A stretch of 64,000 bases of DNA from a virus: the IMG/VR virus record IMGVR_UViG_3300031963_000020, positions 84,341 to 148,340 of that record; one strand, 5' to 3'. Made by a program: the position numbers and the translations under genes. Of this stretch, positions 18,280-55,115 are shown piece after piece. The notes beneath the pieces were generated by a model that saw nothing but the letters and a program-made list of their open reading frames with translations, was not told the DNA's origin and made no database searches. The stretch's first letter is position 1; every line of letters starts with the position of its first letter.

Positions 18280-18281
18280 TA

Positions 18282-18293: not shown

Positions 18294-18305
18294 AGGGAAT
18301 AAATA

Positions 18306-19082
18306 ATGCCAGGTCCAACACATACAAATATAGGCCACTCCGATATAGCGTTTGAGAATGTCTACGCTGCGCATACTGATTTTACACAAAATCCGGCACA
18401 CACTGACAATACCACACCATTTAATAATATTGCAGCAGCTCATACCAATATCGCTCATAGTAATCAGGCATTTCTTAATACTTCATTTAGTAATATAGCA
18501 AAATCACACACCAATGTATCACATACAAATATTGGGCATACAGACGGTACGGCAGCACATACAGACAACTATTCACCAGCATCGCATTTAGATAATACTA
18601 GTGCACACTCAAATATCGCAGCAGCTCATACAAATATTGCACATAGTAATATAGCAACATCACACACAGATATATCTCACTCAAATATATCTCATACTAA
18701 CATCGGTGCATCACACACTGACAATACCACACCATTTAACAATATTGCGTTTAGTAATATTGGGTTCGTAAACACCACTATTCCACATACTAATATTGGT
18801 CACACTAATATAGGTGCAGCGCATTCAGATAATACAACACCAGCAGATCACAGCGATATCGCATTTAGTAATATTACGATTAACGCAAGTCACACGGATA
18901 TTACAATCAACGCAAGTCACACGGATATTGCAGCATCACATACCGATACTACCATTAACGCATCACACACGAATATAGTAAGTACCACTCCAGCTTCACA
19001 TACCGACAGTACAACACCATTTACAAATAGTACTACACCACACTCAAATGTTGCGGCCGCTCACAGTAACGCATTCCTATAA
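18306..19082 (+). CDS. [HF]-x-[ND] repeat protein 2
   Basis: A 258-residue protein composed from start (MPGPTHTNIGHSDIAFENV) to end (HSNAFL) of the same repeat type. Units are 5, 7, 9 and once 11 residues long, with no even spacing. It has no signal peptide, membrane segment or separate folded domain. It lacks the collagen head of its upstream neighbour and may assemble on it or act as a separate fibre segment. I do not recognise a named family; a beta-solenoid is inferred from the pentad form of the shortest unit. Confidence 0.65.
   Translation: MPGPTHTNIGHSDIAFENVYAAHTDFTQNPAHTDNTTPFNNIAAAHTNIAHSNQAFLNTSFSNIAKSHTNVSHTNIGHTDGTAAHTDNYSPASHLDNTSAHSNIAAAHTNIAHSNIATSHTDISHSNISHTNIGASHTDNTTPFNNIAFSNIGFVNTTIPHTNIGHTNIGAAHSDNTTPADHSDIAFSNITINASHTDITINASHTDIAASHTDTTINASHTNIVSTTPASHTDSTTPFTNSTTPHSNVAAAHSNAFL
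18318..19075 (+). repeat. [HF]-x-[ND] repeat tract 2
   Basis: Thirty-eight units covering nearly the whole gene, all with odd spacing. DNA-level near-identity with the other tracts is visible, for example in the acaataccacaccatttaa text. Confidence 0.85.
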
Positions 19083-19088
19083 TACACT

Positions 19089-19952
19089 ATGTCGCAATTT
19101 TTTCCACTAGGTACACCAACAACTGCAAGTACAGCACTTATCAGTAGTTTAGCATTTACCGCAACGTATGCTGTGAATGTGAATGTGTTGACAGCATCAT
19201 ATGGTCCTGGACCAACTGGACCACAAGGTGATAAAGGACCAACAGGACCACAAGGTGCAACTGGATTGGCAGGGTCAGGTTCTACAGGACCAACGGGCGC
19301 AACAGGTCCAACTGGGCTAACTAGTTCAGGTCCAACAGGTCCAACAGGACCGCAAGGTGTAATCGGTATTACTGGTATTACAGGCCCAACAGGTGTCACA
19401 GGTTCTACAGGCCCAACAGGTCCAATAGGAATTACTGGTGTAATTGGTGTTACAGGTATTTCTGGTGTAACTGGTATTGCTTCATTTACTTCGGGTTCCA
19501 CAGGCGCTACTGGGCCAACTGGAGCAACAGGTGCTACTGGTGTGGTGGGTATTACTGGTGCAACTGGTATTATTGGAATCACAGGACCAACAGGATTGAC
19601 TAATTTGGTGGGCATTACAGGTCCAACAGGTCCAATAGGATTACCAACCACGGGTTCTACAGGTCCAAGTGGTCCACAAGGAGCAACTGGTGTTGTAGGT
19701 ACTGGTGGTGTTTCTGCAGGAGCGGCGGCATCTGGAGTCATCGGTATTACGGGTATTACTGGTGTACAAGGTACCACAGGACCGCAAGGAAGTCGTGGTG
19801 TGGACGCCGAATGTCCAGCAGGATTTGTAACCTGTACGGAAGGGGCTCCGTCATCGGGGTCAAATACATATACAAACCCAAATAGTAGTATATATTCTGT
19901 GGTTTGTGCCGCAAGACCAGTAGGTTGTTTAGGAACATTTACGTGTGTATAA
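19089..19952 (+). CDS. Collagen-like protein C with Cys-containing tip
   Basis: A 287-residue protein with an FFPLG-type head ([14 protein letters not shown]), a Gly-X-Y tract from about residue 40 to 238, and a non-collagenous C-terminus with five cysteines (AECPAG, VTC, VVC, VGC, FTC). The tract has several breaks ([29 protein letters not shown]) that would kink a triple helix. It starts 6 nt after the previous stop. The head relates it to the proteins at 15889 and 16636. Confidence 0.75.
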
Positions 19953-19984
19953 CGTTATTTTATAAGTAAAGGTATGGAAAATAC

Positions 19985-20002
19985 TACTTATATAGAGGTA
20001 GA
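19985..20002 (+). promoter_or_regulatory. Late-promoter-like motif, TACTTATA copy 5
   Basis: Contains the same 17-base string as 98-114 (ACTTATATAGAGGTAGA) and sits 23 nt before the 20025 start. An exact repeat in two intergenic gaps argues for a functional site. Confidence 0.5.
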
Positions 20003-20024
20003 CGTTATGTGGAGAGTTTAATAT

Positions 20025-21218
20025 ATGGCTAAAGCACCTGGTAGTATTTGGGTAGATGGTGAAACCTTTAGATTTATTGACGCAACTGGAAACGAGTACT
20101 ATTACACTGGTACTGCGGGGTCTAGTCCTGCGGGAGCTAAGGCTGGTTCAATTTGGGTAGACGGAAATGATTTTCATTATATTTCTGCTACTGGTGTTGA
20201 CCGTACAATTGCATACACCGATTTGGGTGTAGCAGCGGGATCAAAACCAGGTTCAGTATGGGTGCAAACCACATTCTGGCAATGGATATCATCGGCAGGA
20301 AACGCTCGTCGTGGTCACACCGACGTAACAGCAGCACACACCGACAATACCACCCCAGCATCTCACACAGATATTGCATTCGTTAATACTACAATTAACG
20401 CGGCACACACAGATACTACAATCAACGCAAGCCATACAGATATAGCAAAAGCACACACGGATAACACAACACCAAATAGTCACACGGACAACACTACTCC
20501 GTTCAATAATATTGCGTTCGTTAATACTACAATCAATGCCGCTCACACGGATAATACAACGAACGCAAGCCATACAGATATAGCAAAAGCACACACGGAT
20601 AACACAACACCAAATAGTCATACTAACAGCTATACTCCACATAGTAATGTCGCACACACCAATATTGGTGCAGCGCACACGGACAACACTACTCCGTTTA
20701 ATAATATCGCATTCACTAACACCTATATTGGTAACAGTCACACCAACAGTTATACTCCACACAGTAATGTCGCACACACCAATATTGGTGCAGCGCACAC
20801 GGACAACACTACTCCGTTTAATAATATAGCATTTACCAATTCATATACAGGTAATAATCACACTAACAATTACACACCACACACCAATATCGGTCACAGT
20901 AATATCGGTCATACTAATATCGGATTTAGTAACATAGCATTTAGTAATATTGGATTTACCAATACAACTATCAATGCATCACACACAAATATCAGTCATA
21001 GTAATATTGGTGTATCGCATACAAATATCGGTCATAGTAATGTTGGATTTAGTAATTCGTATACTGGACACACAAACATTGCACATAGTAATATAGGCGT
21101 ATCGCATACAAATATTGGACATAGTAATGTTGGATTTAGTAATTCGTATACAGGATTTGTAAATTCTTACACACCACAAAATCACACAAATTCGTATCAG
21201 GGTGGTCCTTCAGCCTAA
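20025..21218 (+). CDS. [HF]-x-[ND] repeat protein 3 with WVDG-type head
   Basis: A 397-residue protein. The first 95 residues contain three tandem units of the form G-S-(I/V)-W-V-(D/Q)-x2-F-x-(Y/F/W)-I-(D/S)-(A/S)-(T/A)-G, near residues 5-25, 42-62 and 76-96, probably a small beta head. The remaining 300 residues are [HF]-x-[ND] repeats such as [21 protein letters not shown] and FSNIG. Two DNA blocks inside (around 20630-20700 and 20750-20820) are near-perfect duplicates, showing recent repeat expansion. The ribosome binding site GGAGAG lies 10 nt upstream of the ATG. The head suggests a separate docking point from the FFP-headed collagen proteins. Confidence 0.65.
   Translation: MAKAPGSIWVDGETFRFIDATGNEYYYTGTAGSSPAGAKAGSIWVDGNDFHYISATGVDRTIAYTDLGVAAGSKPGSVWVQTTFWQWISSAGNARRGHTDVTAAHTDNTTPASHTDIAFVNTTINAAHTDTTINASHTDIAKAHTDNTTPNSHTDNTTPFNNIAFVNTTINAAHTDNTTNASHTDIAKAHTDNTTPNSHTNSYTPHSNVAHTNIGAAHTDNTTPFNNIAFTNTYIGNSHTNSYTPHSNVAHTNIGAAHTDNTTPFNNIAFTNSYTGNNHTNNYTPHTNIGHSNIGHTNIGFSNIAFSNIGFTNTTINASHTNISHSNIGVSHTNIGHSNVGFSNSYTGHTNIAHSNIGVSHTNIGHSNVGFSNSYTGFVNSYTPQNHTNSYQGGPSA
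20314..21190 (+). repeat. [HF]-x-[ND] repeat tract 3
   Basis: Continuous units of 5, 7 and 9 residues. The segment with two copies of [19 protein letters not shown] is nearly identical at DNA level. Confidence 0.85.
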
Positions 21219-21238
21219 TGCATGAAAAGGAATAATAT

Positions 21239-22144
21239 ATGAATCATAGTAATTCGACAACACCAGCATCACATACGAACATCGGTGCATCACATACTAA
21301 TATCGGGTTTAGTAATGTGGGGTTTAGTAATAGTTATACTCCATTTTCAAATGTTGGGTTCGGTAATGTCAATGCATCACATACTGATATTGGATTTAGT
21401 AATGTGGGATTTGCAAATTCTTACACACCATTTAGTAATGTAGGGTTTTCCAATAGTTACACACCAAATTCACACACTAATATTGCACACAGCAATATTG
21501 GTCATAGTAATATTGGATTTAATAATATTGCGTTTAGTAATATCGCATTTGGTAATATTGCAAGAACACATACCGATAACACTACAAATGCAAGTCATAC
21601 CAACATTGGTCATACAAATATTGGTGCTGCACACACGAATAACACCACACCATTTAATAATATAGCGTTTAGTAATATTGCGAAGGCACACACAGATAAC
21701 ACTACAAATGCAAGTCATACCAATATCGCGCATACAAATATTGGTGCTGCACATACGGATAACACCACACCATTTAATAATATAGCGTTTAGTAATATTG
21801 CGAAGGCACATACGGACAATACTACAATTGCCTCACACACGGACAATTACACTCCGCATACAAACACTACAATTAATGCGGCACATACCGACAATACAAC
21901 ACCAGCATCACATACGGATATCGCACATACTAATATTGCTGCAGCACATACGGACAATACTACTAACGCAGCCCATACGGACAATTACACCCCGCATACA
22001 AACACTACAATTAATGCCGCACACACGGATACCACAATCAACGCAAGTCATACCGACATTGCGCACACTAATACAACAATTAATGCTGCACACACGGATA
22101 ACACCACACCACATAGCGACCAACCAGTATTTGTTGGTCCATAA
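21239..22144 (+). CDS. [HF]-x-[ND] repeat protein 4
   Basis: A 301-residue protein that is repeat from residue 3 (HSN) to near the end (HSDQPVFVGP). I parsed every unit: all are 5, 7 or 9 residues long. Phe-type units dominate the first third and His-type units the last third. AAGGA precedes the ATG. It is the last gene before the promoter of the radical SAM enzyme and so the nearest candidate substrate or partner. No catalytic motif is present. Confidence 0.65.
   Translation: MNHSNSTTPASHTNIGASHTNIGFSNVGFSNSYTPFSNVGFGNVNASHTDIGFSNVGFANSYTPFSNVGFSNSYTPNSHTNIAHSNIGHSNIGFNNIAFSNIAFGNIARTHTDNTTNASHTNIGHTNIGAAHTNNTTPFNNIAFSNIAKAHTDNTTNASHTNIAHTNIGAAHTDNTTPFNNIAFSNIAKAHTDNTTIASHTDNYTPHTNTTINAAHTDNTTPASHTDIAHTNIAAAHTDNTTNAAHTDNYTPHTNTTINAAHTDTTINASHTDIAHTNTTINAAHTDNTTPHSDQPVFVGP
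21242..22130 (+). repeat. [HF]-x-[ND] repeat tract 4
   Basis: Whole-gene repeat. A block of about 120 bases ending near 21690 is copied almost exactly in the next 120 bases (to 21810). Confidence 0.85.
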
Positions 22145-22209: not shown

Positions 22210-23529
22210 ATGACTATTGAATTAGAACCAGTTGGTGTAGTATGTAATTTAAGTTGCCCGTATTGTTACGAACATCCCATGCGAGATGCGGGTAATTTCC
22301 GACATAAAACATATTCCGTTGAAAAAATGTTAGAAGGTCTTGCCAAAGAAGGTGGTAATTTTACCCTCTTTGGTGGTGAACCATTATTAACTGATATTGA
22401 CGATTTAGAAACTATTTTTAAGTGGGGGTTTGACCGATATGGATTTAATGGTATTCAAACAAATGGTGTTTTAATTACTGACCGCCACATAGAAATGTTT
22501 AAGAAGTACAGAGTTCACGTCGGAATATCACTTGATGGTCCTGACGAAATGAACGACACGCGTTGGGCAGGGTCATTAGAAAAGACCAGAGAGGCTACCC
22601 GCAAGTCATTTGAAGCTATTAAAAAGTGTCTTGACAACAAGCTCTCACTTGGTTTAATTATTACTATCCATAAGAAGAACGGATTACCAAAATATCGTGA
22701 ACGTTTCAAGGCATGGATTAAAGAACTTCAGTCGTGGGGTGTTGATGGAGCAAGACTTCATCCACTAGAGATTGACCATAGTTCTGTTGGTGAAACATTA
22801 GCTCTTACACCAGAACAAAATATTGAGTTCCTATTAGATATGTGGGACTTTGAAATCAGTGAACTAAATGTTCCTGGTAAGAAATCATTTCAGTTTGATA
22901 TCTTCCGTGACGTAGAATATATGTTGCGTGCAGACGATGCAAACGCAACCTGTACATTTATGACTTGTGACCCATATACCACGCATGCGGTGCAAGGTAT
23001 TGACTCGCAAGGTAATAAAGCAAACTGCGGTCGTGGTAACAAAGAAGGTATTAACTGGATTAAAGCCGATGTTGACGGATTTGAACGTCAGATGGCACTA
23101 TATAATACACCACAAGAACATGGTGGATGTCAGGGGTGCCGATTCTTTATTATGTGTAAGTCACACTGCCCAGGTACAGGTGCAGATATGGACTGGAGAA
23201 ATAGAACGGATACCTGTATGAATTGGAAGGTAGCGTTTAGTATCTATGAACGAATGATGGTTGAACGTGGTGAGATGCCATTATCTCTAGACCCAAAATT
23301 AAAGAGATATGAAGATATTTTGATGTATGGTTATAGTAGAGGTGCAGAACTTAGATTAGAACACATTAAAAAGTATCTTGACCCAAATATTGGATTTGAT
23401 ATTGAAAGATACATCCAATCATATTTGATGAACCAAGCTATGGGTGGACACAAGCCACACGCAGACCATACAGATGAAACAGGAAGATACGCATTAGAGT
23501 TTAAAGAGAAGTACGGATATTTACCTTAA
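22210..23529 (+). CDS. Radical SAM/SPASM peptide maturase-like enzyme
   Basis: A 439-residue enzyme of the radical SAM superfamily. The 4Fe-4S/SAM motif CNLSCPYC gives C12, C16 and C19, and the SAM-binding GGEP lies at 55-58. A canonical SPASM domain follows: C253-x14-G268-x4-C273, then C307-x2-C310-x5-C316-x3-C320 and C336, expected to bind two auxiliary clusters. Enzymes of this layout (anSME, RiPP maturases) modify peptides or proteins. The last 30 residues carry HADHTDETGRYA, a motif repeated in the next gene. It follows four [HF]-x-[ND] repeat genes and is followed by a small motif-bearing protein and a methyltransferase. The family and cofactors are well supported; the substrate is inference. 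A phage A-type Fe-S carrier at 46939 could supply clusters. Confidence 0.85.
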   Translation: MTIELEPVGVVCNLSCPYCYEHPMRDAGNFRHKTYSVEKMLEGLAKEGGNFTLFGGEPLLTDIDDLETIFKWGFDRYGFNGIQTNGVLITDRHIEMFKKYRVHVGISLDGPDEMNDTRWAGSLEKTREATRKSFEAIKKCLDNKLSLGLIITIHKKNGLPKYRERFKAWIKELQSWGVDGARLHPLEIDHSSVGETLALTPEQNIEFLLDMWDFEISELNVPGKKSFQFDIFRDVEYMLRADDANATCTFMTCDPYTTHAVQGIDSQGNKANCGRGNKEGINWIKADVDGFERQMALYNTPQEHGGCQGCRFFIMCKSHCPGTGADMDWRNRTDTCMNWKVAFSIYERMMVERGEMPLSLDPKLKRYEDILMYGYSRGAELRLEHIKKYLDPNIGFDIERYIQSYLMNQAMGGHKPHADHTDETGRYALEFKEKYGYLP

Positions 23530-37228: not shown

Positions 37229-37645
37229 ATGTTAACAAATATACCTCGTCCACTATTTGAGATTTTGGGAGATACAAATACCAAAAATAAATTGTCTTTG
37301 ACAATTACAAATGTCTCACCAAGTATTACTGATGAAGATATACGAAGAAAAGTGAAGTCTCGTTATTTTGCGAAATATACATCGCAAAGATATGGTACCG
37401 TGTTTGAAATAACTGGTGGTATGTATTCCAATATACTTAATAACCCATTATTTAGAAAAACTAAAATAGATTGGATAATATGCGGTAAACTTGAAGATAC
37501 CATCTTGACATTACCAAGTGGTGATAATATATTAATCAAGGGAGTGATTAGCCAAAACAAGGCACTACTTGGACTAGCAGAAGAAGAACTTCCAGGTATT
37601 ACTAATCATTTACGAAACTATATGGAATTCTATTCGGGGGAATAA
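37229..37645 (+). CDS. Conserved hypothetical, end of baseplate operon
   Basis: A 138-residue alpha/beta protein (MLTNIPRPLFEILGD start) with a C-terminal helix EEELPGITNHLRNYMEF. It lies 3 nt after the baseplate gene and overlaps the polymerase-like gene by one base (TAATG), so it bridges the structural and replication blocks. No motif is recognised. Confidence 0.45.
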   Translation: MLTNIPRPLFEILGDTNTKNKLSLTITNVSPSITDEDIRRKVKSRYFAKYTSQRYGTVFEITGGMYSNILNNPLFRKTKIDWIICGKLEDTILTLPSGDNILIKGVISQNKALLGLAEEELPGITNHLRNYMEFYSGE

Positions 37646-38967
37646 TGGTTGTACAATCGGTTCTGGACTTACAAAAACTACAGAAGCGAATAGATACCGA
37701 GGTGTCGTATATGGCACCTATCCTCGTTGACCAGCACTCGCATCCTGCGGTCAATCAAGTGTCCTCTTTACATATTGCGTTTAACGACGGGGAATACTTC
37801 TGCGTTCCCTTTAATCATCCCGATGGTATCCCTCTATCGGTCGAACTTAAAGACGCATTTAAGATTGTTACCCTATACAAACGAGAAATCCTTCATGCGT
37901 TCCCAAGTGTTCCACACGAACGGGTGCATGATGTTGCGACTATTCTCCACTTATCCAGTAATAGTATTCCAGAAATTCGTGAATACTATACTCCGAATAT
38001 CCAACGAACATTACAGCAGTTTCAGTTTAAGAACCTGCATCTCAGTATCCCGTTGACGATGTGGATGGAATATGGACACAACCTACTTCGTTTCATCCAC
38101 GAATCATACAAGAAGCATACAACACCAGATGGGTATGAGTTTGTCAATAATACAATCATTCCAACGTTGACCACGATTGAGAAGTCGGGGCTATGTATTG
38201 ACCAGAATATCTTGACAGAACACTTTGGGTCAGACATAAAAAAATATATAACTAATAATACAATATATTCAGAATATAATCCATATACTGCTACAGGTCG
38301 TCCAAGCAACAAGTATGGTGGTATCAATTTTGCTGCACTAAATAAATCGGATGGAACTCGTGGAGCATTTACCAGTAGATATGGGGACGATGGACTTCTC
38401 ATCCAGTTTGACTACGAAGCGTTCCACTTACGTCTGGTTGGGGCACAAATGGGATATGACCTTCCAAATAGTTCTGTCCATACCTTTCTCGCTCAGCAGT
38501 ATTATGGTAAAGAGGAGGTCAATCCTGAGGAATATGAGGCGTCAAAAGCAAGAACATTTGCATTGATGTATGGAATGACCGAAGAGTTCGGTAATGTTGA
38601 TTTCTTCCATAAGGTTAGAAAGTATAGTGAACTGATATGGGAAATCTATAGAAGCTCTGGATATGTAAAGACCAAAACGGGTAAGAAACTGGTGGTCGAA
38701 GAACCATCGCAGAATAAAGTGTTTAACTATTCTGTACAATGGTTGGAAACAGAATCAGCACTCACTAATGTCGCAAAGGTGTGTGAGTTATTAAAGGGAC
38801 GATTGACGAAACCTATTCTCTACACTTATGACGCATTACTCTTAGATTTACACAGGTCGGAAGCAGCAATGCTCCCAGCAATCAAGAGTTTGTTAGAGGG
38901 AGAAATGTATCCAACTAGAATGTATAAGGGTAAAAATTACAATGAACTTTTGAAGGTAGAAATATAA
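37645..38967 (+). CDS. Divergent family A DNA polymerase-like protein
   Basis: A 440-residue protein with the motif order of DNA polymerase I. The text TATGRPSNKYGGINFAAL corresponds to TGRLSS-PNLQNIP. Motif A is QFDYEAFHLR with D256 (usual DYSQIELR). The O-helix motif is EASKARTFALMYG with K301 and Y309. A GYVKTKTGKK segment and NYSVQ precede motif C, YTYDALLLDL with D396 (usual VHDE). Both metal-binding Asp are kept, but the motif A Glu is His261, the motif C His is Tyr395 and the Glu is Ala397. The N-terminus (LHIAFNDGEYFCVPFNH) looks like a shortened, probably inactive 3'-5' exonuclease fold. The phage also has a family B polymerase at 49530. Function could be gap filling, lesion bypass or a structural role. 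Confidence 0.75.
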   Translation: MVVQSVLDLQKLQKRIDTEVSYMAPILVDQHSHPAVNQVSSLHIAFNDGEYFCVPFNHPDGIPLSVELKDAFKIVTLYKREILHAFPSVPHERVHDVATILHLSSNSIPEIREYYTPNIQRTLQQFQFKNLHLSIPLTMWMEYGHNLLRFIHESYKKHTTPDGYEFVNNTIIPTLTTIEKSGLCIDQNILTEHFGSDIKKYITNNTIYSEYNPYTATGRPSNKYGGINFAALNKSDGTRGAFTSRYGDDGLLIQFDYEAFHLRLVGAQMGYDLPNSSVHTFLAQQYYGKEEVNPEEYEASKARTFALMYGMTEEFGNVDFFHKVRKYSELIWEIYRSSGYVKTKTGKKLVVEEPSQNKVFNYSVQWLETESALTNVAKVCELLKGRLTKPILYTYDALLLDLHRSEAAMLPAIKSLLEGEMYPTRMYKGKNYNELLKVEI

Positions 38968-39039: not shown

Positions 39040-39447
39040 ATGAAACCAGAAACACAGTTACTTTGTACTTTCTGTGCAAAAAAGGATATTGAATCCACCA
39101 TAGAACAAATCAAGAAAATCTACACACTCGCATTTAATTCGGTTTATGTGTTGGATAATGTGAATGATGAGAATCAAGCAATCTTGACGTATAATATCGA
39201 TTTATCGAAACCAGTTCTTGGTGAAGCACCAGAATCTACAATTTCAGTACATAGAAAGAAGCAAACAAACACTATCTACACAATCAATGCTATTAATAAG
39301 TTGATTGAAGAAAAGAATGGTGGTGTATTAGATAAGACCTATAAGATTGATTGGACTGAATTACAAAATACTGTTTTAGTCACCGCATACGGTCGCCTTA
39401 AAAAAGTAAATACTAAAATATCAAATATTATTAATATTCAAAACTAA
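39040..39447 (+). CDS. Conserved hypothetical upstream of ssDNA-binding protein
   Basis: A 135-residue protein (MKPETQLLCTFCAKKDIEST). The pattern is alternating beta and alpha, with a basic C-terminal half (KIDWTELQNTVLVTAYGRLKKVN). A 72-nt gap separates it from the polymerase-like gene, holding TTGACC within a 6-bp inverted repeat (38965-38979) but no good -10. It lies just upstream of the gp32 promoter. In T4, neighbours of gene 32 include translational regulators, but I see no specific family. Confidence 0.4.
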   Translation: MKPETQLLCTFCAKKDIESTIEQIKKIYTLAFNSVYVLDNVNDENQAILTYNIDLSKPVLGEAPESTISVHRKKQTNTIYTINAINKLIEEKNGGVLDKTYKIDWTELQNTVLVTAYGRLKKVNTKISNIINIQN

Positions 39448-39531: not shown

Positions 39532-40350
39532 ATGGCACTAGATTTTAATGCCCTAAAGGCAAAGCTCAACACATTCACAAAGCAAAGTGACCGAAGTGAG
39601 TCGCTTTGGAAGCCCACCGAAGGTAAGACAACCATCCGTATTGTCCCGTGGGCAAAGAACCGCGAGAACCCTTTCATTGAACTCTATTTCCACTATATCG
39701 GAAATAAGACTTACATCTCGCCTCTTTCATTTGGTCGCCGCGACCCTATCGCGGAATTCGCAGACAAGTTAGTTGAAGATGCACGCCGTGAAGGTCGTGA
39801 AGCGGAGAAGGCTGCCTGGAAGCAGGCTAACGCTTTCCGTCCGAAGCTTCGTACCTATGTTCCTATCATCGTTCGTGGTGAAGAGGACAAGGGTGTTCGT
39901 TTCTTCTCATTCGGTAAGACGGTCTATCAGGACCTCCTTTCCTACATCGCTGATCCTGACTACGGTGATATTACTGATCCGAAGGTTGGTCGTGATGTTG
40001 TGGTCGAATATATCCCACAAGAGAAGTCCGACACGAACTTTGCCAAGACCTCAGTAAAGGTTAAGCCGAATCAGACCCCTGTGGTCGGTGATGTTGATGT
40101 TGCTAAGAAGCTTCTCTCGGAACAGCCCGATATCTTTGCACTCTACAAGGAACCTTCCTATGAAGAGTTGATGGTTGTTCTCCAGAAGTATCTTGACCCA
40201 GATGGTTCGACTCCCACCCCCGCTCCTGCAAAGGGTAATTCTGAGGTCAAGAGTGTGACCGCCGAAGTCCTTGACGTTAAGACGGAGATTTCTGAGTCGG
40301 CACAAGTCAAGAACGCTCTTGATGAGTTCGATAAGCTATTCGACAATTAA
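39532..40350 (+). CDS. 32: Single-stranded DNA-binding protein, T4 gp32-like
   Basis: A 272-residue protein. The N-terminus (MALDFNALKAKLNTF) is the cooperativity-type basic segment, followed by the OB-fold core with EGKTTIRIVPW and FIELYFHYIGNKTYISP. The acidic C-terminus (EFDKLFDN) is the usual protein-interaction tail. The zinc ligands of T4 gp32 are not visible, as in many distant homologues. It coats ssDNA and coordinates replication, recombination and repair. A very strong ribosome binding site (AAGGAG) and its own promoter suit an abundant protein. Codon usage is more GC-rich than in the fibre genes. Confidence 0.85.
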   Translation: MALDFNALKAKLNTFTKQSDRSESLWKPTEGKTTIRIVPWAKNRENPFIELYFHYIGNKTYISPLSFGRRDPIAEFADKLVEDARREGREAEKAAWKQANAFRPKLRTYVPIIVRGEEDKGVRFFSFGKTVYQDLLSYIADPDYGDITDPKVGRDVVVEYIPQEKSDTNFAKTSVKVKPNQTPVVGDVDVAKKLLSEQPDIFALYKEPSYEELMVVLQKYLDPDGSTPTPAPAKGNSEVKSVTAEVLDVKTEISESAQVKNALDEFDKLFDN

Positions 40351-40363
40351 TCGGTAATCAACT

Positions 40364-41530
40364 ATGGCTACCGAAAAGAAAACTAAGAAACCAATTCCTG
40401 CGGCAGACCGTGACGAGTTGGCACAAGTCATCGCAGACTCACTTAACAAATTAAACAAAGACTCTGACCAGATTGCATATTTCCTTGATGGTAAGGAAGA
40501 TACTCCAACGGATTTCACCGATTTTATTTCGACTGGTGCAACAATGTTGGATATCGCAATCAGTAATCGTCCCCACGGTGGTATCGCTGTGGGCCGTATC
40601 ACTGAACTTACTGGATTGGAAGGTTCTGGTAAATCGTTGGTCGGTGCACAACTTATCGCTAATACACAGAAACGTGGTGGTGTGGCAGTATTGATTGATA
40701 CTGAAACCGCAGTTAATCCAGAGTTCTTTAAGGCTGTAGGTATTGATATGAACAAGTTAGTATATGTTCATCTTTCTACGGTTGAAGATATCTTCGATGC
40801 AATCACCAATATCATTGAAAAGGTCAGAGCTGGCAAGGACAAAGATAAGTTGGTCACGATTATCGTTGACTCCGTTGCCGCAGCTTCTACTAAGAAGGAA
40901 ATGGAAGCCGACTTCGGTAAGGACGGATACGCTACTGACAAGGCAATCATTATCAGTAAGGCAATGCGAAAGATTACCGGCCTCCTCGGTCGTGAACGTA
41001 TCGCATTAGTATTCACCAACCAACTCCGTCAGAAGATGAACGCTCCTGCGTTCTCTGACCCGTGGACTACCTCCGGTGGTAAGGCTATCGCATTCCACGC
41101 ATCAACTCGTATTCGTTTGTCCTTAATTGGTAAAATCCAAGACGGAAACAAGAATGTTGTTGGTGTGAATGTCAAGGCGGTTGTGGTTAAGAATCGTCTT
41201 GGTCCTCCACATCGTGTGGCAGAATTCGACATCTACTTTGACCGTGGTATTGATGATTATGGTAGTTGGTTGGATGTCTTGAAGGAAAACAACTTGGTCA
41301 AGCAATCTGGTGCATGGTATACTATGATTGATGAAACTACTGGTGAAGAAGTTAAGTTCCAATCAAAGGACTTCCCGAAGTTCTTAGACTCGAACATCAC
41401 CCGTAAGGAAGAAATCTATAGTAAGATTTGTGATACACTCATTATGAAGTATCGTAGTGAGTATAATCCAGACGCTATGACACTTGATACTGGTGAAGAA
41501 GATAGTAAACAACTTTTACTGGACGAATAA
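40364..41530 (+). CDS. uvsX: UvsX/RecA-family recombinase
   Basis: A 388-residue strand-exchange ATPase. Walker A is GLEGSGKS (84-91), followed by the RecA-core text LIDTETAVNPEFF and the Walker B strand VTIIVDSVAA. The L1/L2 region is marked by LVFTNQLRQKMNAP and TSGGKAIAFHASTRIRL. The C-terminus is acidic (DTGEEDSKQLLLDE). It loads on gp32-coated DNA for recombination-dependent replication. It lies 13 nt after gp32 and one base before the next gene, in a replication operon. Confidence 0.9.
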   Translation: MATEKKTKKPIPAADRDELAQVIADSLNKLNKDSDQIAYFLDGKEDTPTDFTDFISTGATMLDIAISNRPHGGIAVGRITELTGLEGSGKSLVGAQLIANTQKRGGVAVLIDTETAVNPEFFKAVGIDMNKLVYVHLSTVEDIFDAITNIIEKVRAGKDKDKLVTIIVDSVAAASTKKEMEADFGKDGYATDKAIIISKAMRKITGLLGRERIALVFTNQLRQKMNAPAFSDPWTTSGGKAIAFHASTRIRLSLIGKIQDGNKNVVGVNVKAVVVKNRLGPPHRVAEFDIYFDRGIDDYGSWLDVLKENNLVKQSGAWYTMIDETTGEEVKFQSKDFPKFLDSNITRKEEIYSKICDTLIMKYRSEYNPDAMTLDTGEEDSKQLLLDE

Positions 41531-41531: not shown

Positions 41532-41858
41532 ATGTTAGAAGAATTCATTGAGGTTGCATTAGAAGCATTTACTAATGCAAACGGAAATGTTGATAAGTTT
41601 GAACTACAACTTCGTAGAAAATTGATGGTATATAACACTACTGTCGCAACACAGCAATCTGTTGTGAATACTACAATTCCTCCAATTCCACTAAATCAAG
41701 TTGAAAAAGCTATAACTAACATAAGTGAAAATGATCCTATTTTTGCCGAACTTGAAAACATAGATGTTAATACTATGACTGATGAAGATGTATTAGCATT
41801 GGCTCGTCGTATGGGAATAATGGAAAACGTAGCTGAGCAATCAGAAGAAAATGAGTGA
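41532..41858 (+). CDS. Small acidic protein between uvsX and the flap nuclease
   Basis: A 108-residue acidic protein; the ATG one base after the uvsX stop is preferred to a longer in-frame start inside uvsX. It has a helical N-terminus (MLEEFIEVALEAFTNANG) and a C-terminal helix pair (DEDVLALARRMGIMENV). The position resembles that of UvsY-type mediators in some phages, but the sequence does not show a UvsY motif. It overlaps the next gene by 8 nt. Confidence 0.45.
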   Translation: MLEEFIEVALEAFTNANGNVDKFELQLRRKLMVYNTTVATQQSVVNTTIPPIPLNQVEKAITNISENDPIFAELENIDVNTMTDEDVLALARRMGIMENVAEQSEENE

Positions 41859-42921
41859 TTTACAGAAAGTTTTTGAATCAATGAAGTTTGATGTCAGTAA
41901 GGAGGACACGAAGTATAATAGTCGTGTCCTCTTTATTGACGCACTCAATACGTTCTTACGTAGTTATGCAGCAATTCCAACACTTGATGATAATGGTAAT
42001 CATATTGGTGGTATGTCTGGATTTCTGAAAAGTGTTGGGTCTGTTGTTCGTGATTTCAAACCTTCTCGTGTTGTGATTGTATTTGACGGAAAGGGTGGGT
42101 CACAGCGTAGACGTAAAATCTATTCAGACTATAAATCAAATCGTAAGCCGCCGACTCGGTTAAATCGTCAGTACGATATGACAACCGAAGAGCAAGAAAC
42201 AGAAAATATGAAGTATCAGTTGGTGACACTTATTGAGATGTTAGAGTGTCTCCCTGTTACGATTTTCACAATGGATAATATTGAAGCAGACGATGTGATT
42301 GCATATGCATCGGAACTGATCACCGCACAAGGTGGAGAATCTATCATCTATTCTACAGATAAAGATTTCTTGCAAATGGTGACGGAAACTACAAAGGTCT
42401 ACAATCCCGTCAAGAAGAAAACATTTGATGTGCAGACGATTATAGAAACCTATGGGGTGCATCCTGATAACTTTGTATATTATCGGGCACTACTTGGTGA
42501 TAAGAGTGATAATATTGATGGTATCCGTGGGGCTGGTGAAAAGACGGTATTAAAGTTATTTCCAGAACTTGTAGATAATACAAATACAGTTGACTATAAT
42601 TTCATCGAACAAAAGTATACAGATGTAAAGAAGAAACCGAAATTAATTGAGAATATTTTAAGTAATAAAGATATAGTAGAAAGAAATATGCAACTCATGC
42701 AGTTACGAGATGTTAATATTTCAACAGATGCAAAAATGAAAATAGTTCATAAATTAGACATTGTTAAGACGGATTTACGCAAGATGGACTTGACAAAGTT
42801 GATGATTCGTAGTAAAGTTATATCTAACTTTCCGACTTACGATATGTGGCTTGCGTCCACATTTGTTCCACTAACGAGGTTCTCTAATGGTTCCGATAGT
42901 ATCAGCACCACAAAATTATGA
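41851..42921 (+). CDS. rnh: 5'-3' exonuclease/flap endonuclease, T4 RNase H-like
   Basis: A 356-residue FEN-family nuclease. The metal-binding Asp-rich motifs appear in order: LFIDALNTFLR, VVIVFDGKGG, a YKSNRKPPTRLN bridge region, NIEADDVIAY, STDKDFLQM and the helix-hairpin-helix text LLGDKSDNIDGIRGAGEKT. It removes RNA primers and flaps on the lagging strand. It overlaps both neighbours (8 nt upstream, 35 nt downstream), indicating translational coupling with the helicase gene. Confidence 0.88.
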   Translation: MSDLQKVFESMKFDVSKEDTKYNSRVLFIDALNTFLRSYAAIPTLDDNGNHIGGMSGFLKSVGSVVRDFKPSRVVIVFDGKGGSQRRRKIYSDYKSNRKPPTRLNRQYDMTTEEQETENMKYQLVTLIEMLECLPVTIFTMDNIEADDVIAYASELITAQGGESIIYSTDKDFLQMVTETTKVYNPVKKKTFDVQTIIETYGVHPDNFVYYRALLGDKSDNIDGIRGAGEKTVLKLFPELVDNTNTVDYNFIEQKYTDVKKKPKLIENILSNKDIVERNMQLMQLRDVNISTDAKMKIVHKLDIVKTDLRKMDLTKLMIRSKVISNFPTYDMWLASTFVPLTRFSNGSDSISTTKL

Positions 42922-44293
42922 TACGAATGTAGATAATCTATCGAAGTATGGTATTGAGTTTCAAACAAAAGTATTATCGTCGATAATCTCTGCACCAGAT
43001 TTTTTGGAGCAGTCGTTTGATGTTATCAATCCATACTTCTTTGATAGTGATTCTGGTAGATGGATTGCGAAGAAAGCTCTATCCTTTTATAACGAATATC
43101 GCACACTACCAACACTTGAATATTTCAAGATTGAATTATCACAAGAAACCGACGATTCACTTCGTGCGGGAACTATTGAATTGCTTCGTAAGGTGGTCAC
43201 GAAGGTCACCGATACGGATGCAGAATATGTTCGTGATAAGTTTCTTGACTTTGCTCGTAATCAGTCATTAAAGTCGGCAATCATTAAATCGGTTGATTTA
43301 CTACAGAGTGGTGATTACGATAAGATTAAGACGGTTGTTGACCACGCACTTCGTAGTGGACAACCAAAGGAAATCGGTCTAAACTGGTCGGAAGATGTCG
43401 AGGCACGATTGGCTCGTATTTCTCGTGATACGGTTCCGACTGGTTGGGATGTAATTGATGCAATTACTGGTGGTGGATTGGGTGGTGGTGAACTTGGTGT
43501 CATCGCAGCTCCGTCTGGTATCGGTAAGAGTTGGGCATTGTCTACGATTGGTGCAAACGCACTACGTAAGGGAAAGCGAGTGGTACATTACACTCTTGAA
43601 CTTAACGAAAACTATGTTGGTATTCGGTATGATACTATCTTTACTGGTATTGAACCTGGAAAGATTCCTGATAATGTTGATGCCGTTAAAGATGTGGTGT
43701 CAAAGATTACTGGACAACTAATTATTAAATACTATCCTGCCAGAAGTGCAACGTGTAATTCACTTATGGCACACGTACAACAGTTGACAGCATTGGGATA
43801 CAAGCCCGATTTGATGTTGGTTGACTACGCAGACTTATTAAGAGCAGCAGAACGAGTAGATGCCCGTTATCAAGAATTGGGTGCAATCTACGAGGAACTT
43901 CGTGGCATCGCTGGGGAACTGAACATTCCATGTTGGACAGCATCGCAGACACAACGTAGTTCTATTCAAGATGACGTTATTCAGGCAGACAAGATTTCAG
44001 AATCATATAATAAGATTATGACTGCTGATTTAGTCATCTCGTTGAGCCGTAAGTTAGAAGATAAGGTCAATAAGACAGGACGTGCCCATATTATTAAGAA
44101 TAGATTTGGTGCAGATGGTCAAACATTTCCTGTCGTGATGGATACAAGTATCGGTCAGATACAAATTTACGATGAGAAATCATCAAAAGGTATTTTGTTG
44201 AAGAAACAGATGGAAAATCAAGTTGCAGATGAAAAGAATACACTCAGAAAAAAGTTGGCAGAGATGAGTGGATTAGAAAGTCTTGATGATTAA
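42887..44293 (+). CDS. 41: Replicative DNA helicase, gp41/DnaB-like
   Basis: A 468-residue hexameric helicase of the DnaB/RecA-fold class. The N-terminal helical domain (residues 1-150) is followed by the motor with Walker A IAAPSGIGKS (K214), the motif LDLMLVDYADLL-type Walker B (here DLMLVDYADLLRAA), and an arginine-finger region with VISLSRKLEDKVN and IKNRFGADGQTFP. It unwinds DNA ahead of gp43. GAGGT at 42876 gives its ribosome binding site inside the nuclease gene. No primase (gp61) or loader (gp59) gene is seen nearby in the window. Confidence 0.88.
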   Translation: MVPIVSAPQNYDTNVDNLSKYGIEFQTKVLSSIISAPDFLEQSFDVINPYFFDSDSGRWIAKKALSFYNEYRTLPTLEYFKIELSQETDDSLRAGTIELLRKVVTKVTDTDAEYVRDKFLDFARNQSLKSAIIKSVDLLQSGDYDKIKTVVDHALRSGQPKEIGLNWSEDVEARLARISRDTVPTGWDVIDAITGGGLGGGELGVIAAPSGIGKSWALSTIGANALRKGKRVVHYTLELNENYVGIRYDTIFTGIEPGKIPDNVDAVKDVVSKITGQLIIKYYPARSATCNSLMAHVQQLTALGYKPDLMLVDYADLLRAAERVDARYQELGAIYEELRGIAGELNIPCWTASQTQRSSIQDDVIQADKISESYNKIMTADLVISLSRKLEDKVNKTGRAHIIKNRFGADGQTFPVVMDTSIGQIQIYDEKSSKGILLKKQMENQVADEKNTLRKKLAEMSGLESLDD

Positions 44294-49255: not shown

Positions 49256-49552
49256 ATGAGATTGCTGTGGGTATTTATCTTTCAAGTATTATTCAATATT
49301 TTCAAGGTGTTGGAAATACGATTTACGTTACAACATAATGTTCGTAAGTTGTTGGTCAACTCTGTATGGATAAATTTGATGGCTCTTGGGTCAACATTCT
49401 TTTCCGTTGATGAACTCTTGAAAGGAAACTTCTGGGTCATTATATTCTATATCTCTGGAAGTGTGGTTGGTAAATACATCGGCATGAACTTAGAAATAAC
49501 ACCAAAGAAGAAAAACAAACGAGGTTTTCGTGTATCAGAATATTTTTATTGA
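49256..49552 (+). CDS. Small membrane protein, UPF0316/DUF5698-like
   Basis: A 98-residue protein with about three hydrophobic segments (WVFIFQVLFNIFKVL, LLVNSVWINLMALGSTFF, FWVIIFYISGSVVGKYIGM). The arrangement, with a GKYIGMNLE ending, resembles the membrane part of UPF0316/DUF5698 proteins. The C-terminus is basic (KKKNKRGFRV). It overlaps the polymerase start by 23 nt. Function unknown. Confidence 0.5.
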   Translation: MRLLWVFIFQVLFNIFKVLEIRFTLQHNVRKLLVNSVWINLMALGSTFFSVDELLKGNFWVIIFYISGSVVGKYIGMNLEITPKKKNKRGFRVSEYFY

Positions 49553-52052
49553 AGATGGTGAAGGTCGTGGTATAGTGCATCTCTGGGATGACCAGAACGG
49601 CTATACCACTTTGCCGTTTTCGCAGTTTGATTACGCATATAAGGCTGACCGCAATGGGTCGAAGTTAAGTATGACGGGTGTTCGGGTCAGCAAGACGAAG
49701 ATGTATAAGTGGGATGACCCCACCCTATTTGAAAGTGATGTCCCTCGTGAAACTCGTGTGTTAACCGATTTATATTTGGAAGAGGATAATCCATCCGCAG
49801 GACACAAGGTTATTTTCTTTGACATCGAAGTGTCAATGGAAAATGGCATTCCTAATATCGAAAACCCCAACAACGAAGTCACTGCTATTACTCTTTACGA
49901 TAATATCACCAAGGAGTATAATGTCCTTGTACTCGACAAGTCGGGGAAGCGGGAAGATTTCGTCAAGGGTGATACCAACACATTCTTTTTCAAGGACGAG
50001 GTAGACTTACTCTATAAGTTTATTGATGTGTATGAAACTATTGGTCCCACAATTATCACGGGATGGAATAGTGATTACTTCGACGTGCCGTATCTCTACA
50101 ACCGATTGAAGCAGCAGTGTGGAAATGGGATTGCCAACCGACTCTCTCCAATCGGGAAGTTGAAGTATTCCAAGTTCCGTAAGAAGTGGATGATTGCGGG
50201 GGTGTCATCCCTTGATTATCTTGACCTTTATAAGAAGTTTACCTACGGACAACAGCAGAACTATCGTCTTGATACGATTGGTCGTATTGAGGTTGATATG
50301 GGTAAGATTGAATACGAAGGGTCGTTGGATGAACTTTTCAGAACTGATTTAGAGAAGTTTATTGAATATAACGTGCGAGACGTGCGTATCATCGTAGAAA
50401 TCGACAAGAAGATGAAGTTGATTGAGTTAGTCCGTGGTATCTGTCACGTGGGTCACGTGCAATACGAAGATTATTGTTATAGTTCGAAGTTCTTGGAAGG
50501 GACGATTATTACTTACCTTCACCGCAAGGGATTGGTGGTCAGTAATAAACCTGCCGATGGTCGGCAGTTGATGAATGAACGAGTAGAGAACGATGACGAA
50601 GGGTTTGCTGGTGCATATGTGAAACCTCCTGTTCCTGGATTGTATGATTGGGTGTATTCACTCGACTTGCAATCTCTTTATCCGTCTATTATTATGTCCC
50701 TCAACATCTCACCAGAAACCAAGCGTGGGTTCATTACGAACTGGGATGTGGAAAAGCATCGCAAGGGTGAGATTGATACCTATCTTATTCGTGAGAAGGA
50801 TACCGATACGATTGTCAAACTTCCAAGAGAGAACTTTATCCAGTTTATGGAAAAGGCAAATCTCTATGTGAGTTCAAACGGGGTAATGTATGATAGTAGT
50901 AAGACTGGTATCATTCCAGAAGTGCTCGACAAGTGGTTCGCAGAGCGTGTTGAGTTTAAGAACTTGATGAAGAAGTATAAGAATGAAGGGAATACGGAGT
51001 TGGCTGAGTTCTATGATAGACGCCAGCATATTCAGAAGATTTTCTTGAACTCACTTTATGGTGTGTTGGGACTTCCTATCTTCCGTTTCTTTGATATTGA
51101 CAACGCTCTTGCGGTCACGGCAACGGGTCAAGATGTGATTAAGAATAGTGCCGACTTTGCCAACAAGTTGTATAACGATAAGTTAAACGACAACAACGAT
51201 TATTGTATCTATATCGATACTGACTCGTTGTATTTCTCGTCGAAGGCATTACTTCCAGAGAACGTTGACCCAAAGGACTTCACGATTAAACTGGCTCGTG
51301 CGGTCGAAAAGAAGTTGAATGATTATTACAATGTGATGTCGAAGGAACTCTTCTTCTGTGATAAGCATCGTCTTTACATCAAGGGTGAGTCAGTTGCAAG
51401 TAAAGGATTGTGGATTGCAAAGAAGCGATATGCGATGAACGCGGTCTATGATTTGGAATCCAATATTGACATCGATAATAAAATCAAGATTAAGGGTCTT
51501 GACGTTGTTCGTTCAACCTTCCCACCCGCATTCCGTGCATTTATGAACGGGGTCTTGAAGGATGTCTTGGGTGGTATTGGTAAAACCGATATGGATAAAA
51601 AGGTATTAGAGTTCCGTGAGAAGTTAAACGATGAACCCTATCTCAATGTCGCACGAAACACTTCTGTCAAGAATATTAGTGAATACGAAAAGGGAACAGG
51701 AAAGCAACTCAACGAGTTTAAGAAGGGCACCCCTGCGCACGTGAAGGCATGTATCAGTTATAACAAACTCCTTCACCACTTCAAGATACAGAACAAGTAT
51801 GAGAAGATTAGTGATGGCGAGAAAATTAAGTATGTGTATCTCACGAACAACCCGTGGAACCTTGAAACTATCGCGGTGAAAGGTTATAATGATCCAAAGG
51901 AAATCACGGATATTGCGGAACAATATATTGACTACGAAGCATTGTTTGTAAACGAGTTAAAGAAGAAGTTGGAAGATTTTTATAGTGCGATGAATTGGGG
52001 ATTACTCCCTACTGATGTTAATCAAAAAGCAGAAGAATTCTTTTCTTTTTAA
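49530..52052 (+). CDS. 43: Family B DNA polymerase, T4 gp43-like
   Basis: An 840-residue replicative polymerase with proofreading. Exo I is FFDIE (D98, E100), Exo II ITGWNSDYFDVPY, Exo III YNVRDVRI. Polymerase motif A is SLDLQSLYPSI (D379), motif B LNSLYGVLG and motif C YIDTDSLYF (D563, D565). The C-terminus (FYSAMNWGLLPTDVNQKAEEFFSF) ends in the hydrophobic peptide expected to bind the sliding clamp. Start is a GTG with GAGG 6 nt upstream. The T4 enzyme is 898 residues, so this one is slightly compact. Confidence 0.95.
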   Translation: MYQNIFIEDGEGRGIVHLWDDQNGYTTLPFSQFDYAYKADRNGSKLSMTGVRVSKTKMYKWDDPTLFESDVPRETRVLTDLYLEEDNPSAGHKVIFFDIEVSMENGIPNIENPNNEVTAITLYDNITKEYNVLVLDKSGKREDFVKGDTNTFFFKDEVDLLYKFIDVYETIGPTIITGWNSDYFDVPYLYNRLKQQCGNGIANRLSPIGKLKYSKFRKKWMIAGVSSLDYLDLYKKFTYGQQQNYRLDTIGRIEVDMGKIEYEGSLDELFRTDLEKFIEYNVRDVRIIVEIDKKMKLIELVRGICHVGHVQYEDYCYSSKFLEGTIITYLHRKGLVVSNKPADGRQLMNERVENDDEGFAGAYVKPPVPGLYDWVYSLDLQSLYPSIIMSLNISPETKRGFITNWDVEKHRKGEIDTYLIREKDTDTIVKLPRENFIQFMEKANLYVSSNGVMYDSSKTGIIPEVLDKWFAERVEFKNLMKKYKNEGNTELAEFYDRRQHIQKIFLNSLYGVLGLPIFRFFDIDNALAVTATGQDVIKNSADFANKLYNDKLNDNNDYCIYIDTDSLYFSSKALLPENVDPKDFTIKLARAVEKKLNDYYNVMSKELFFCDKHRLYIKGESVASKGLWIAKKRYAMNAVYDLESNIDIDNKIKIKGLDVVRSTFPPAFRAFMNGVLKDVLGGIGKTDMDKKVLEFREKLNDEPYLNVARNTSVKNISEYEKGTGKQLNEFKKGTPAHVKACISYNKLLHHFKIQNKYEKISDGEKIKYVYLTNNPWNLETIAVKGYNDPKEITDIAEQYIDYEALFVNELKKKLEDFYSAMNWGLLPTDVNQKAEEFFSF

Positions 52053-53286: not shown

Positions 53287-54389
53287 AAATTATCAAGTCA
53301 AGTGATTGGCTCATTTCGGAAAACAAGGCTGGTGGTGAGAAGTTCTGGCGGTTGCATATCCTCCAAGATAACAAAGAAGGAGGATTTTATACACAGACGG
53401 AATGGTTTCAGATTAGTAAGACAGGCCGTGAAACCAAACGACAGTTCTCTTCACCCTATTATGCGGAACCCACAAATGTCGGTCGGTCAAACGAGCGTAA
53501 CTCTGAGCAGCAGGCAGAGTTTGAGTTTGACGCCGTAATCAAGAAGCAGAAGGACAAGGGATTCCGTGCGAAGGGTGAGAAGAAGAACATCCGTCCGATG
53601 CCAATGCTCGCGCATAAGTTTACGGACCATAAAAAGAAGGTTGAGTTTCCTATCTATGTTCAGCCCAAGCTCAATGGTATGCGTATGTTGTTTGACGGAG
53701 AGAACGGATGGAGTCGGGGAAACAAGGAAGTTATTCCAGAAGTAATTCAACACTTGAAGTTTGATACTGGTGGTCATATCCTTGATGGTGAGTTGATGCT
53801 TCCGAATAACGTTCTACTCCAAGAGAGTATGACCGCTATCAAGAAGTATCGTCCTGAGTTGTCCCCAAAGTTGCTCTATCACGTTTATGATATCGTGGAT
53901 AGTGACCTTCCGTATTCCGCACGGCATGAATTGATTCGTGAGATTTGTGCAAACGCTCCAAAGAATGTCGTGAGAGTTCCTACGTGGGAGGCTTTCACGG
54001 AGTCGGATGTGTTGGTGTGGCACAAGTCATTCACCAGAGATGGATTCGAGGGAACGATGATTCGTAACCCCGAGATGGGATATGAGATTGGTAAGCGTTC
54101 CTATTCACTTTTGAAACTAAAGGATTTCGTCGATGCAGAATATCGTATTGTTGATGTTATTGATGGTGATGGTAGTGACGTTGGGCTCGCCATATTTGAA
54201 TTGGAGACTGATTCTGGTCAGCGGTTTAATTGCCGCCCAGAAGGTTCACAAGAAAATCGTGCGGACCTATTCAAGAATCGTCGTTCGCTTATTGGCAAGT
54301 ATCTAACGGTTCGCTATCAAGAGTTGAGCAAGGATGGAGTTCCTATTTTCCCTGTGGGTGTCTCTATTCGTGAATGGGGAGAGTTCTAG
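53283..54389 (+). CDS. ATP-dependent DNA ligase with WGR-like N-terminus
   Basis: A 368-residue nucleotidyltransferase. Residues 1-100 (GEKFWRLHILQ, then YTQTEWFQISKTGRETKR) resemble a WGR DNA-binding domain. The adenylation domain follows: motif I PKLNGMR, motif III HILDGELM, motif IV FEGTMIRNP and motif V SLLKLKDF, then an OB fold ending SIREWGEF. Motif I has Asn where KxDG has Asp, but the lysine is intact. It seals nicks on the lagging strand. It is coupled to the mini-protein upstream and ends 8 nt before the tRNA-like element. Confidence 0.85.
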   Translation: MKIIKSSDWLISENKAGGEKFWRLHILQDNKEGGFYTQTEWFQISKTGRETKRQFSSPYYAEPTNVGRSNERNSEQQAEFEFDAVIKKQKDKGFRAKGEKKNIRPMPMLAHKFTDHKKKVEFPIYVQPKLNGMRMLFDGENGWSRGNKEVIPEVIQHLKFDTGGHILDGELMLPNNVLLQESMTAIKKYRPELSPKLLYHVYDIVDSDLPYSARHELIREICANAPKNVVRVPTWEAFTESDVLVWHKSFTRDGFEGTMIRNPEMGYEIGKRSYSLLKLKDFVDAEYRIVDVIDGDGSDVGLAIFELETDSGQRFNCRPEGSQENRADLFKNRRSLIGKYLTVRYQELSKDGVPIFPVGVSIREWGEF

Positions 54390-54397
54390 TTATATTC

Positions 54398-54516
54398 GGC
54401 ACCGCAGTTGGTCGGGACAACGATAGTATGACACGGGCGCTACCCGAGGTTACAAGCATACTATGCTAGCCAAGGACTAGGTGAGAGCCTAGATGGGTTC
54501 GAATCCCACGGTGCCA
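54398..54516 (+). ncRNA. Atypical tRNA-like RNA of 119 nt
   Basis: A 7-bp acceptor-type stem (54398-54404 with 54509-54515), discriminator A, and a T-arm-like hairpin TGGGTTCGAATCCCA immediately inside it. Other helices are GTTG/CAAC (54407-54421, D-arm-like), an 8-bp perfect stem 54423-54430/54457-54464 enclosing a 26-nt insert with its own CGGG/CCCG hairpin, and CTAGG/CCTAG (54477-54481/54488-54492, like a long variable arm). No canonical 7-nt anticodon loop is visible, the T stem has only 4 bp, and CCA is not encoded. It may be an intron-bearing or degenerate tRNA, or a tRNA mimic. It fills the whole 141-nt gap between ligase and the next gene. Confidence 0.5.
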
Positions 54517-54530
54517 CTTATGAGGTGAAT

Positions 54531-55115
54531 ATGGCATTACAAGGTTATTTCGTAGAACACATTAGTTTTTCAGAAACCGTCCGAAACTTCTTACACAGAT
54601 GGCATTATGCAGATTATCATAATGTCCAACACAAAGAAGTATTTGGATTGTTTCGTGAAGGTCTATTCCTACCAGAACTGGTGGGTGTTTGTGTTTATAC
54701 GCGTCCCGCAGGTGCTGCGGCAGCACAAAAATACTATCCAGATGACCCCGATAAATGTCTCGAACTTCGCAGGTTGTGTTTGATTGATGACACACCAAAG
54801 AACGCGGAGAGTTTCTTTGTCAGTAGAACACTAAAATGGTTACGAAAAAATACTGATTGGAAGTTCGTGGTCAGTTATGCTGATGAAGCACAAGGACACA
54901 AAGGCACCATCTATAGAGCAGCAAACTTTAAGTATGAGGGAATGACTGGAGCAGGAACAACACTTTTGGTTGATGGTAAAGCATTTCATGTCAGAACGCT
55001 CACGATGTTAGATAGACCATATGGTGTAGAAATCAATAATCGATACAAACGTGGTGACCCTGGGATACAAATAATCAAAACCAAACCCAAACACATTTAC
55101 ACATATCAATTATGA
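54531..55115 (+). CDS. Mom-like GNAT protein 1, putative DNA-modification enzyme
   Basis: A 194-residue protein with the signature of phage Mu Mom-like acyltransferase-fold proteins: CLELRRLCLID, SRTLKWLRKN, then FVVSYADEAQGHKGTIYRAANFKYEG. Mu Mom converts adenine in DNA to a carbamoylmethyl form that blocks restriction. The ATG at 54531 is chosen because GAGGT sits 5 nt before it; an in-frame GTG at 54525 is less well placed. A paralogue lies at 62407. Chemistry and target base are inferred from the family. Confidence 0.65.
   Translation: MALQGYFVEHISFSETVRNFLHRWHYADYHNVQHKEVFGLFREGLFLPELVGVCVYTRPAGAAAAQKYYPDDPDKCLELRRLCLIDDTPKNAESFFVSRTLKWLRKNTDWKFVVSYADEAQGHKGTIYRAANFKYEGMTGAGTTLLVDGKAFHVRTLTMLDRPYGVEINNRYKRGDPGIQIIKTKPKHIYTYQL

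Follow-up and report, generated by a model that had tools for sequence, protein, structure and literature searches.

The divPolA1 family was named by Yutin et al. (2024, Virol J 21:200, PMC11348598) on the basis of 14 phages, Flavobacterium phage immuto among them, and was described as a protein with a truncated thumb, an inactivated exonuclease, conserved catalytic residues, and a replication-gene context. It is accompanied by a regular polymerase, which may belong to family A, B, or C; the authors inferred that divPolA1 retains polymerase activity and found it less obvious what the "regular" polymerases do in such phages. In the literature that we searched, divPolA1 is named only in that paper and in the preprint of the same work. 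The same study described divPolA2 of the barbaviruses, which resembles divPolA1 in being a second PolA beside a regular PolB and in missing the thumb but has an unrelated N-terminal domain, no exonuclease domain, and variable gene neighborhoods.

By gene arrangement and description, divPolA1 can also be likened to the PolA-SSB primases (CcPol-MP; Rice 2023, PMC10061031), in which a truncated PolA with a shortened thumb likewise occurs with an SSB and a helicase. In SCCmec elements, the truncated PolA beside the SSB and helicase can make primers, and the shorter last thumb helix has been argued to leave space in which the initiating triphosphate can sit. However, CcPol-MP belongs to Bacillota mobile elements, not to T4-like phages, and its catalytic and O-helix residues are reported to be conserved. 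Thumb-truncated Pol I has low processivity, according to Minnick et al. 1996 as cited in PMC10061031.

Here we analyzed a window of 64,000 nucleotides (positions 84,341 to 148,340 of IMG/VR virus record IMGVR_UViG_3300031963_000020). It encodes a 440-aa protein that we assign to the already described divPolA1 family as a further, gp43-bearing member (Table 1). What is new beyond PMC11348598 is a set of several hundred IMG/VR loci, the invariant changes at the positions of Klenow E710, R754, and H881, and a near-universal neighbor, orf135.

Table 1. Features of the divPolA1 locus and associated replication genes (positions in the window unless G000 is given)
Feature	Position	Strand	Basis
orf138, upstream neighbor at the end of the structural block	37229..37645	+	Sequence; relatives upstream in most loci
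divPolA1, family A DNA polymerase without thumb, exonuclease-dead	37645..38967	+	440 aa; Pfam, profile, and fold
Degenerate 3'-5' exonuclease domain (about residues 1-160)	37645..38124	+	Model and alignment
Thumb stump (residues 187-204)	38203..38256	+	Alignment to Klenow
TATGRPSN (residues 215-222), R219 = Klenow R668	38287..38310	+	R219 invariant, 83/83
Motif A, DYEAFHLRL (256-264), D256 = D705, H261 = E710	38410..38436	+	Profile alignment
Motif B/O-helix (297-310), Y297 = R754, K301 = K758, F305 = F762, Y309 = Y766	38533..38574	+	Profile alignment
Motif C, YTYDA (393-397), Y395 = H881, D396 = D882, A397 = E883	38821..38835	+	Profile alignment
orf135, next conserved gene downstream	39040..39447	+	Nearly all loci reaching far enough
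gp32-like ssDNA-binding protein	39532..40350	+	PF08804, E = 2.1e-15
UvsX/RecA-like recombinase	40364..41530	+	PF00154, 1.5e-51; phrog_97, 1.5e-71
PolI-N-terminal-type 5'-3' exonuclease (FEN/RNase H)	41851..42921	+	Positions 2-277 of PolI model NF004397
gp41/DnaB-like replicative helicase	42887..44293	+	Pfam and PHROG profile matches
gp43 family B DNA polymerase, regular replicase, exonuclease and polymerase domains intact	49530..52052	+	PF00136, 3.6e-42; PF03104, 3.2e-20; phrog_262, 3.1e-185
Zinc-ribbon/Toprim primase-like protein of the phage	G000 54182-55114		Missed by a plain PF08275 search

Results

The divPolA1 ORF begins with an ATG that overlaps the stop codon of orf138, just upstream (TAATG). 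The gene is under strong purifying selection, with a dN/dS of about 0.05 against relatives that are 93 to 95% identical. Pfam DNA_pol_A matched the protein with an E value of 1.3e-7 at 31.3 bits, slightly below the gathering score of 34.3, and matched 45/45 aligned relatives (best, 2.2e-13). In PHROGs the protein fell to phrog_17, DNA polymerase (2e-10), and phmmer against the PDB returned a putative PolA (9qhs, 1e-6) and Klenow (3e-4). When compared by hhalign with a set of six canonical PolA sequences, divPolA1 was matched at a probability of 99% (E = 9e-18), and a second run with match columns taken from the first sequence aligned residues 3-433 with Klenow 333-925, that is, over the full length. 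An AF2 model built on the 45-sequence alignment had a mean pLDDT of 92.2 and a pTM of 0.91, and Foldseek searches of the PDB with it were led by Klenow fragments and Pol I (1d8y, E = 3.9e-20; 8oo6, TMq 0.80). The palm/fingers fold is present, motifs A, B, and C follow one another in the family A order, and neither catalytic Asp is missing. By predicted fold and by profile, divPolA1 is thus a true family A polymerase. The original prediction had called it a second, family A-like polymerase in a gp43-bearing phage, which the fold, the hhalign match, and an intact gp43 support; it had also made the presence of a palm fold and of in-register motifs the point to check, and AF2, Foldseek, and hhalign against Klenow and the PolAs recovered exactly that.

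Homology to the immuto protein is evident by tblastn (E = 6e-42, 27% identity, residues 22-431, 93% of the length), and the other divPolA1 traits recur here, namely, the truncated thumb, an inactivated exonuclease with its Asp replaced, retained palm residues, replication genes downstream, and an additional regular polymerase elsewhere. In a tblastn search of 50,697 phage records, near-full-length homologues were confined to Immutovirus, Microcystis phage Mel-JY01, and one uncultured phage of 484 kb; three divergent queries gave the same set plus weak matches to ordinary PolAs. A single-sequence search of IMG/VR found 53 loci, and an alignment-based search gave at least 598 pattern matches, at least 583 of them encoding a relative. 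Copies in bacterial genomes were limited to one MAG contig.

Next, we examined the residues of the active site. Besides the pairs listed in Table 1, the profile alignment with the six PolAs equates N228 with N675, H279 with H734, N361 with N845, and Q365 with Q849. Among 83 distinct family members, each of at least 250 aa, R219, N228, D256, H261, K301, F305, Y309, Q365, Y395, and D396 are invariant, and N361 is Asn in 82/83. Other positions vary narrowly: residue 279 is His in 73 members and Tyr in 10, residue 297 is Tyr in 74 and Ile in 9, and residue 397 is Ala in 45 and Ser in 38. E710, R754, and H881, each found in 6/6 canonical PolAs, are replaced in every divPolA1 member, so that the family differs from Klenow by E710H, R754Y/I, H881Y, and E883A/S. 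We take K301 to be the dNTP lysine, R219 and Q365 to be the primer-template minor-groove readers, and D256 and D396 to be the metal-binding residues. The roles that we assume for E710, R754, and H881 likewise come from general Klenow knowledge, an open literature search for papers on mutants (E710/R754/K758) having returned none.

At 20 functional positions of Klenow, 12 residues are identical in divPolA1, compared with 19% identity overall (hypergeometric p = 4e-5, which is indicative only because the positions were picked from general Pol I knowledge after the alignments had been seen). Replacement of E710, R754, and H881 thus goes together with retention of the catalytic Asp residues and of the residues that contact the primer-template, a pattern that points to a re-tuned active site and not to decay. 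Because the replacements run throughout the family, the enzyme may catalyze differently or select other substrates. We therefore place divPolA1, on its residues, in a divergent branch of family A and not with canonical Pol I. These results agree with much of what had been read from the motifs: both catalytic Asp residues are kept, in register with D705 and D882, the order of the PolI motifs holds in the alignment to Klenow, and the motif A Glu is indeed His. The reading of TYDA in place of VHDE fared less well, in that TYDA is present but the contrast was overstated, position 883 being Q, A, or S in other phage PolAs. Given this variability in ordinary phage PolAs, the change of H881 to Tyr alone is distinctive in motif C, and we dropped the notion that TYDA as a whole is aberrant.

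With Klenow, divPolA1 shares the exonuclease and palm/fingers folds, the motif order, and the register. The exonuclease fold persists, and in one alignment register, which gives D501 no clear counterpart, the positions of Klenow D355, E357, and D424 are never acidic in the family; in an alternative register set by eye, D29 stays near ExoI and could be a displaced ExoI Asp. Our claim is therefore confined to the predicted loss of the full carboxylate set. The thumb is a different matter, as about 81 of its residues are missing: Klenow about 556-641 has no counterpart except for five scattered residues, which leaves segments 556-577, 580-610, and 614-641 unmatched. A further 17 finger residues of Klenow are missing as well, and one sub-clade of the family has not even the thumb stump. 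The original prediction had placed the truncation in the exonuclease part, which proved to be little shortened and to have lost its active-site carboxylates instead; the real truncation, that of the thumb, had been overlooked.

The gene neighborhood is conserved. The order orf138-divPolA1-orf135-gp32-UvsX-FEN-gp41 was found in nearly every locus with enough flanking sequence, usually followed by ribonucleotide reductase, and some lineages have extra genes between divPolA1 and orf135. The cassette order is kept from the IMG/VR loci to Immutovirus, Microcystis phage Mel-JY01, and the 484-kb phage. So that the polymerase itself would not drive the selection, we also fetched loci through UvsX. With at least 3.5 kb of upstream sequence, 40/40 of these carried divPolA1 in the cassette divPolA1-orf135-gp32-UvsX-FEN-gp41, although the 40 are loci and not independent events, several sharing contigs with the first set and some being close relatives. 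The gp32/UvsX/FEN/gp41 block downstream also fits the earlier description of the protein as sitting at the head of the recombination genes.

The product of orf135 is a highly conserved protein of 130 to 140 aa with the pattern STISVHRKK.TNT.YT.NA.N. Its AF2 model had a pLDDT of 93 and found no PDB fold match with an E value of <0.001, and searches of Pfam, PHROG, and NCBIfam gave nothing convincing. We regard orf135 as a candidate partner of divPolA1. We set orf138 aside for that part, as its relatives look like variable virion-type proteins that end the structural block, some of them fused to long extra regions.

The family B enzyme that had been reported at 49530 was identified as gp43 by Pfam and PHROG. 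A family B polymerase was present in 9/13 related records, with 2 more found in another search; the records without one are fragments of 66 to 99 kb plus Immutovirus, in which no family B polymerase was detected. The idea that Immutovirus has only divPolA1 as a polymerase was ruled out by its gp199, a canonical full-length PolA of 777 aa with a DTET exonuclease motif, an SLE motif A, and an IHDQ motif C. Thus, Immutovirus has a canonical PolA in place of gp43 and still keeps divPolA1, which separates the role of divPolA1 from that of the main replicase. In Immutovirus (NC_055915.1 16001-66000, locus L118), gp199 lies beside groES/groEL and a group of genes for 7-deazaguanine DNA modification (QueC/D/E, FolE, and DpdA). 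In the 484-kb phage (LR756508.1 259363-267281, loci L112-L115), gp43 matches fall in separated pieces inside ORFs of 1022 and 625 aa, which suggests inteins, introns, or a split gene.

A plain PF08275 search missed the primase-like protein of our phage, a zinc-ribbon/Toprim protein whose presence led us to drop, as the default reading, the idea that divPolA1 stands in for a missing primase. The genome also encodes a clamp loader and an ATP-dependent ligase and so already has these replisome roles filled.

Discussion

Family membership, fold, register, the losses from the thumb and the exonuclease residues, the invariant catalytic residues, the gene context, and the independence from the type of main polymerase were all computed. 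Building on them, we infer that divPolA1 is probably, though by no means surely, an active, nonproofreading, low-processivity accessory polymerase for short-patch synthesis in a lagging-strand/recombination module. As a distributive enzyme working with the gp32-UvsX-FEN-gp41 module, it would add short stretches to 3' ends, either in the gaps that the co-encoded PolI-type 5'-nuclease opens when it removes primers or on recombination intermediates, or in both settings. Loss of the thumb would weaken the grip on the duplex and lower processivity, and loss of proofreading would lower fidelity; both would be tolerable provided that only a few nucleotides are added, as after primer removal. The grip that the missing thumb would give may be supplied by gp32, UvsX, orf135, or another cassette protein, and gene order suggests that gp32, FEN, or orf135 could be a physical partner. 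Together, the adjacent FEN and divPolA1 recall a split Pol I. Against this reading, the replacement of E710, R754, and H881 in every member may have changed catalysis or the choice of substrate, and gp43 alone should be enough to fill Okazaki gaps, as in T4, which leaves the need for a second enzyme unexplained.

The dead exonuclease, the lost thumb, the altered nucleotide-pocket residues, and the UvsX neighborhood would also suit a translesion polymerase, to whose open active site gp43 would hand over at lesions or abasic sites. In eukaryotes, Pol theta and Pol nu, also of the PolA family, do this. However, divPolA1 is shorter than Klenow, without large insertions such as those of Pol theta, and its presence in every tested member of the lineage suits a core gene better than an accessory gene, and we consider a translesion role unlikely. 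A noncatalytic pseudo-polymerase would instead bind primer-template ends or ssDNA and either load gp41, gp32, or UvsX or serve these proteins as a scaffold; it might, for instance, do the work of gp59. Such a function would accommodate the absence of the thumb and the loss of E710, R754, and H881 in all members, and divPolA1 adjoins gp32, beside which T4 has gene 59. Yet a scaffold would hardly need D256, D396, K301, F305, and Y309, which are identical in 83/83 members, so this explanation strikes us as decidedly unlikely.

Thumb loss might, alternatively, permit de novo initiation. With its nucleotide pocket reset (E710H/R754Y/H881Y), divPolA1 would then be a primer-making or repriming, PolA-based PrimPol of the PolA-SSB type working with gp32 and orf135, one of which would hold the ssDNA template. 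The operon logic is that of SCCmec CcPol-MP (truncated PolA, SSB, and helicase), and gp32 and gp41 are both present in this cassette, but UvsX, FEN, and orf135 intervene, and gp32 is an ordinary T4 SSB. CcPol-type enzymes keep the O-helix residues (PMC10061031), whereas divPolA1 replaces R754; the retained primer-terminus readers R668, N845, and Q849 suggest the use of a primer; and Immutovirus has an annotated DnaG-like primase. Because our phage has a primase-like gene of its own and the primer-terminus contacts are kept, we give primer synthesis little credence. Finally, the position in the replication cluster and the less obvious role of the regular polymerases (PMC11348598) could cast divPolA1 as the main replicative polymerase, but it has no thumb and no proofreading, and gp43 is intact with both domains. 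An RNA polymerase fits no better, as 50/50 of its best PDB folds by Foldseek are DNA polymerases and none is a single-subunit RNA polymerase, and F305 is a DNA-polymerase-type residue. T7 RNA polymerase has Tyr at the matching position. Either of these last functions we regard as extremely improbable.

All tested members of this T4-like lineage, which is large and abundant in the environment, keep a second polymerase regardless of which enzyme is the main replicase; this suggests that T4 deals differently with some step of replication or recombination. Because divPolA1 is small and confidently modeled, its activity and partners are directly testable. It would also serve as an experiment of nature on how far Pol I can be pared down and still be of use.

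Other features of the window

A DruA-like protein (58470-59906; PF14236, E = 2.1e-25) is flanked by a clamp-sized ORF (57751) and by the gp44-like clamp loader (59903). The phage also has two genes of the Mom family, which acts in DNA modification, at 54525-55115 and 62407-63234 (PF25680, E = 7.7e-35 and 7.7e-47, respectively). Positions 15889-22144 hold ORFs with collagen-like and His/Asn-rich repeats (HTNIAFSN/HTDNTT units), and the gene immediately after them encodes a radical SAM protein (22210-23529; PF04055, E = 1.4e-15). Together, the repeat ORFs and the radical SAM protein look like a repeat precursor plus its maturase or like a modified tail protein.
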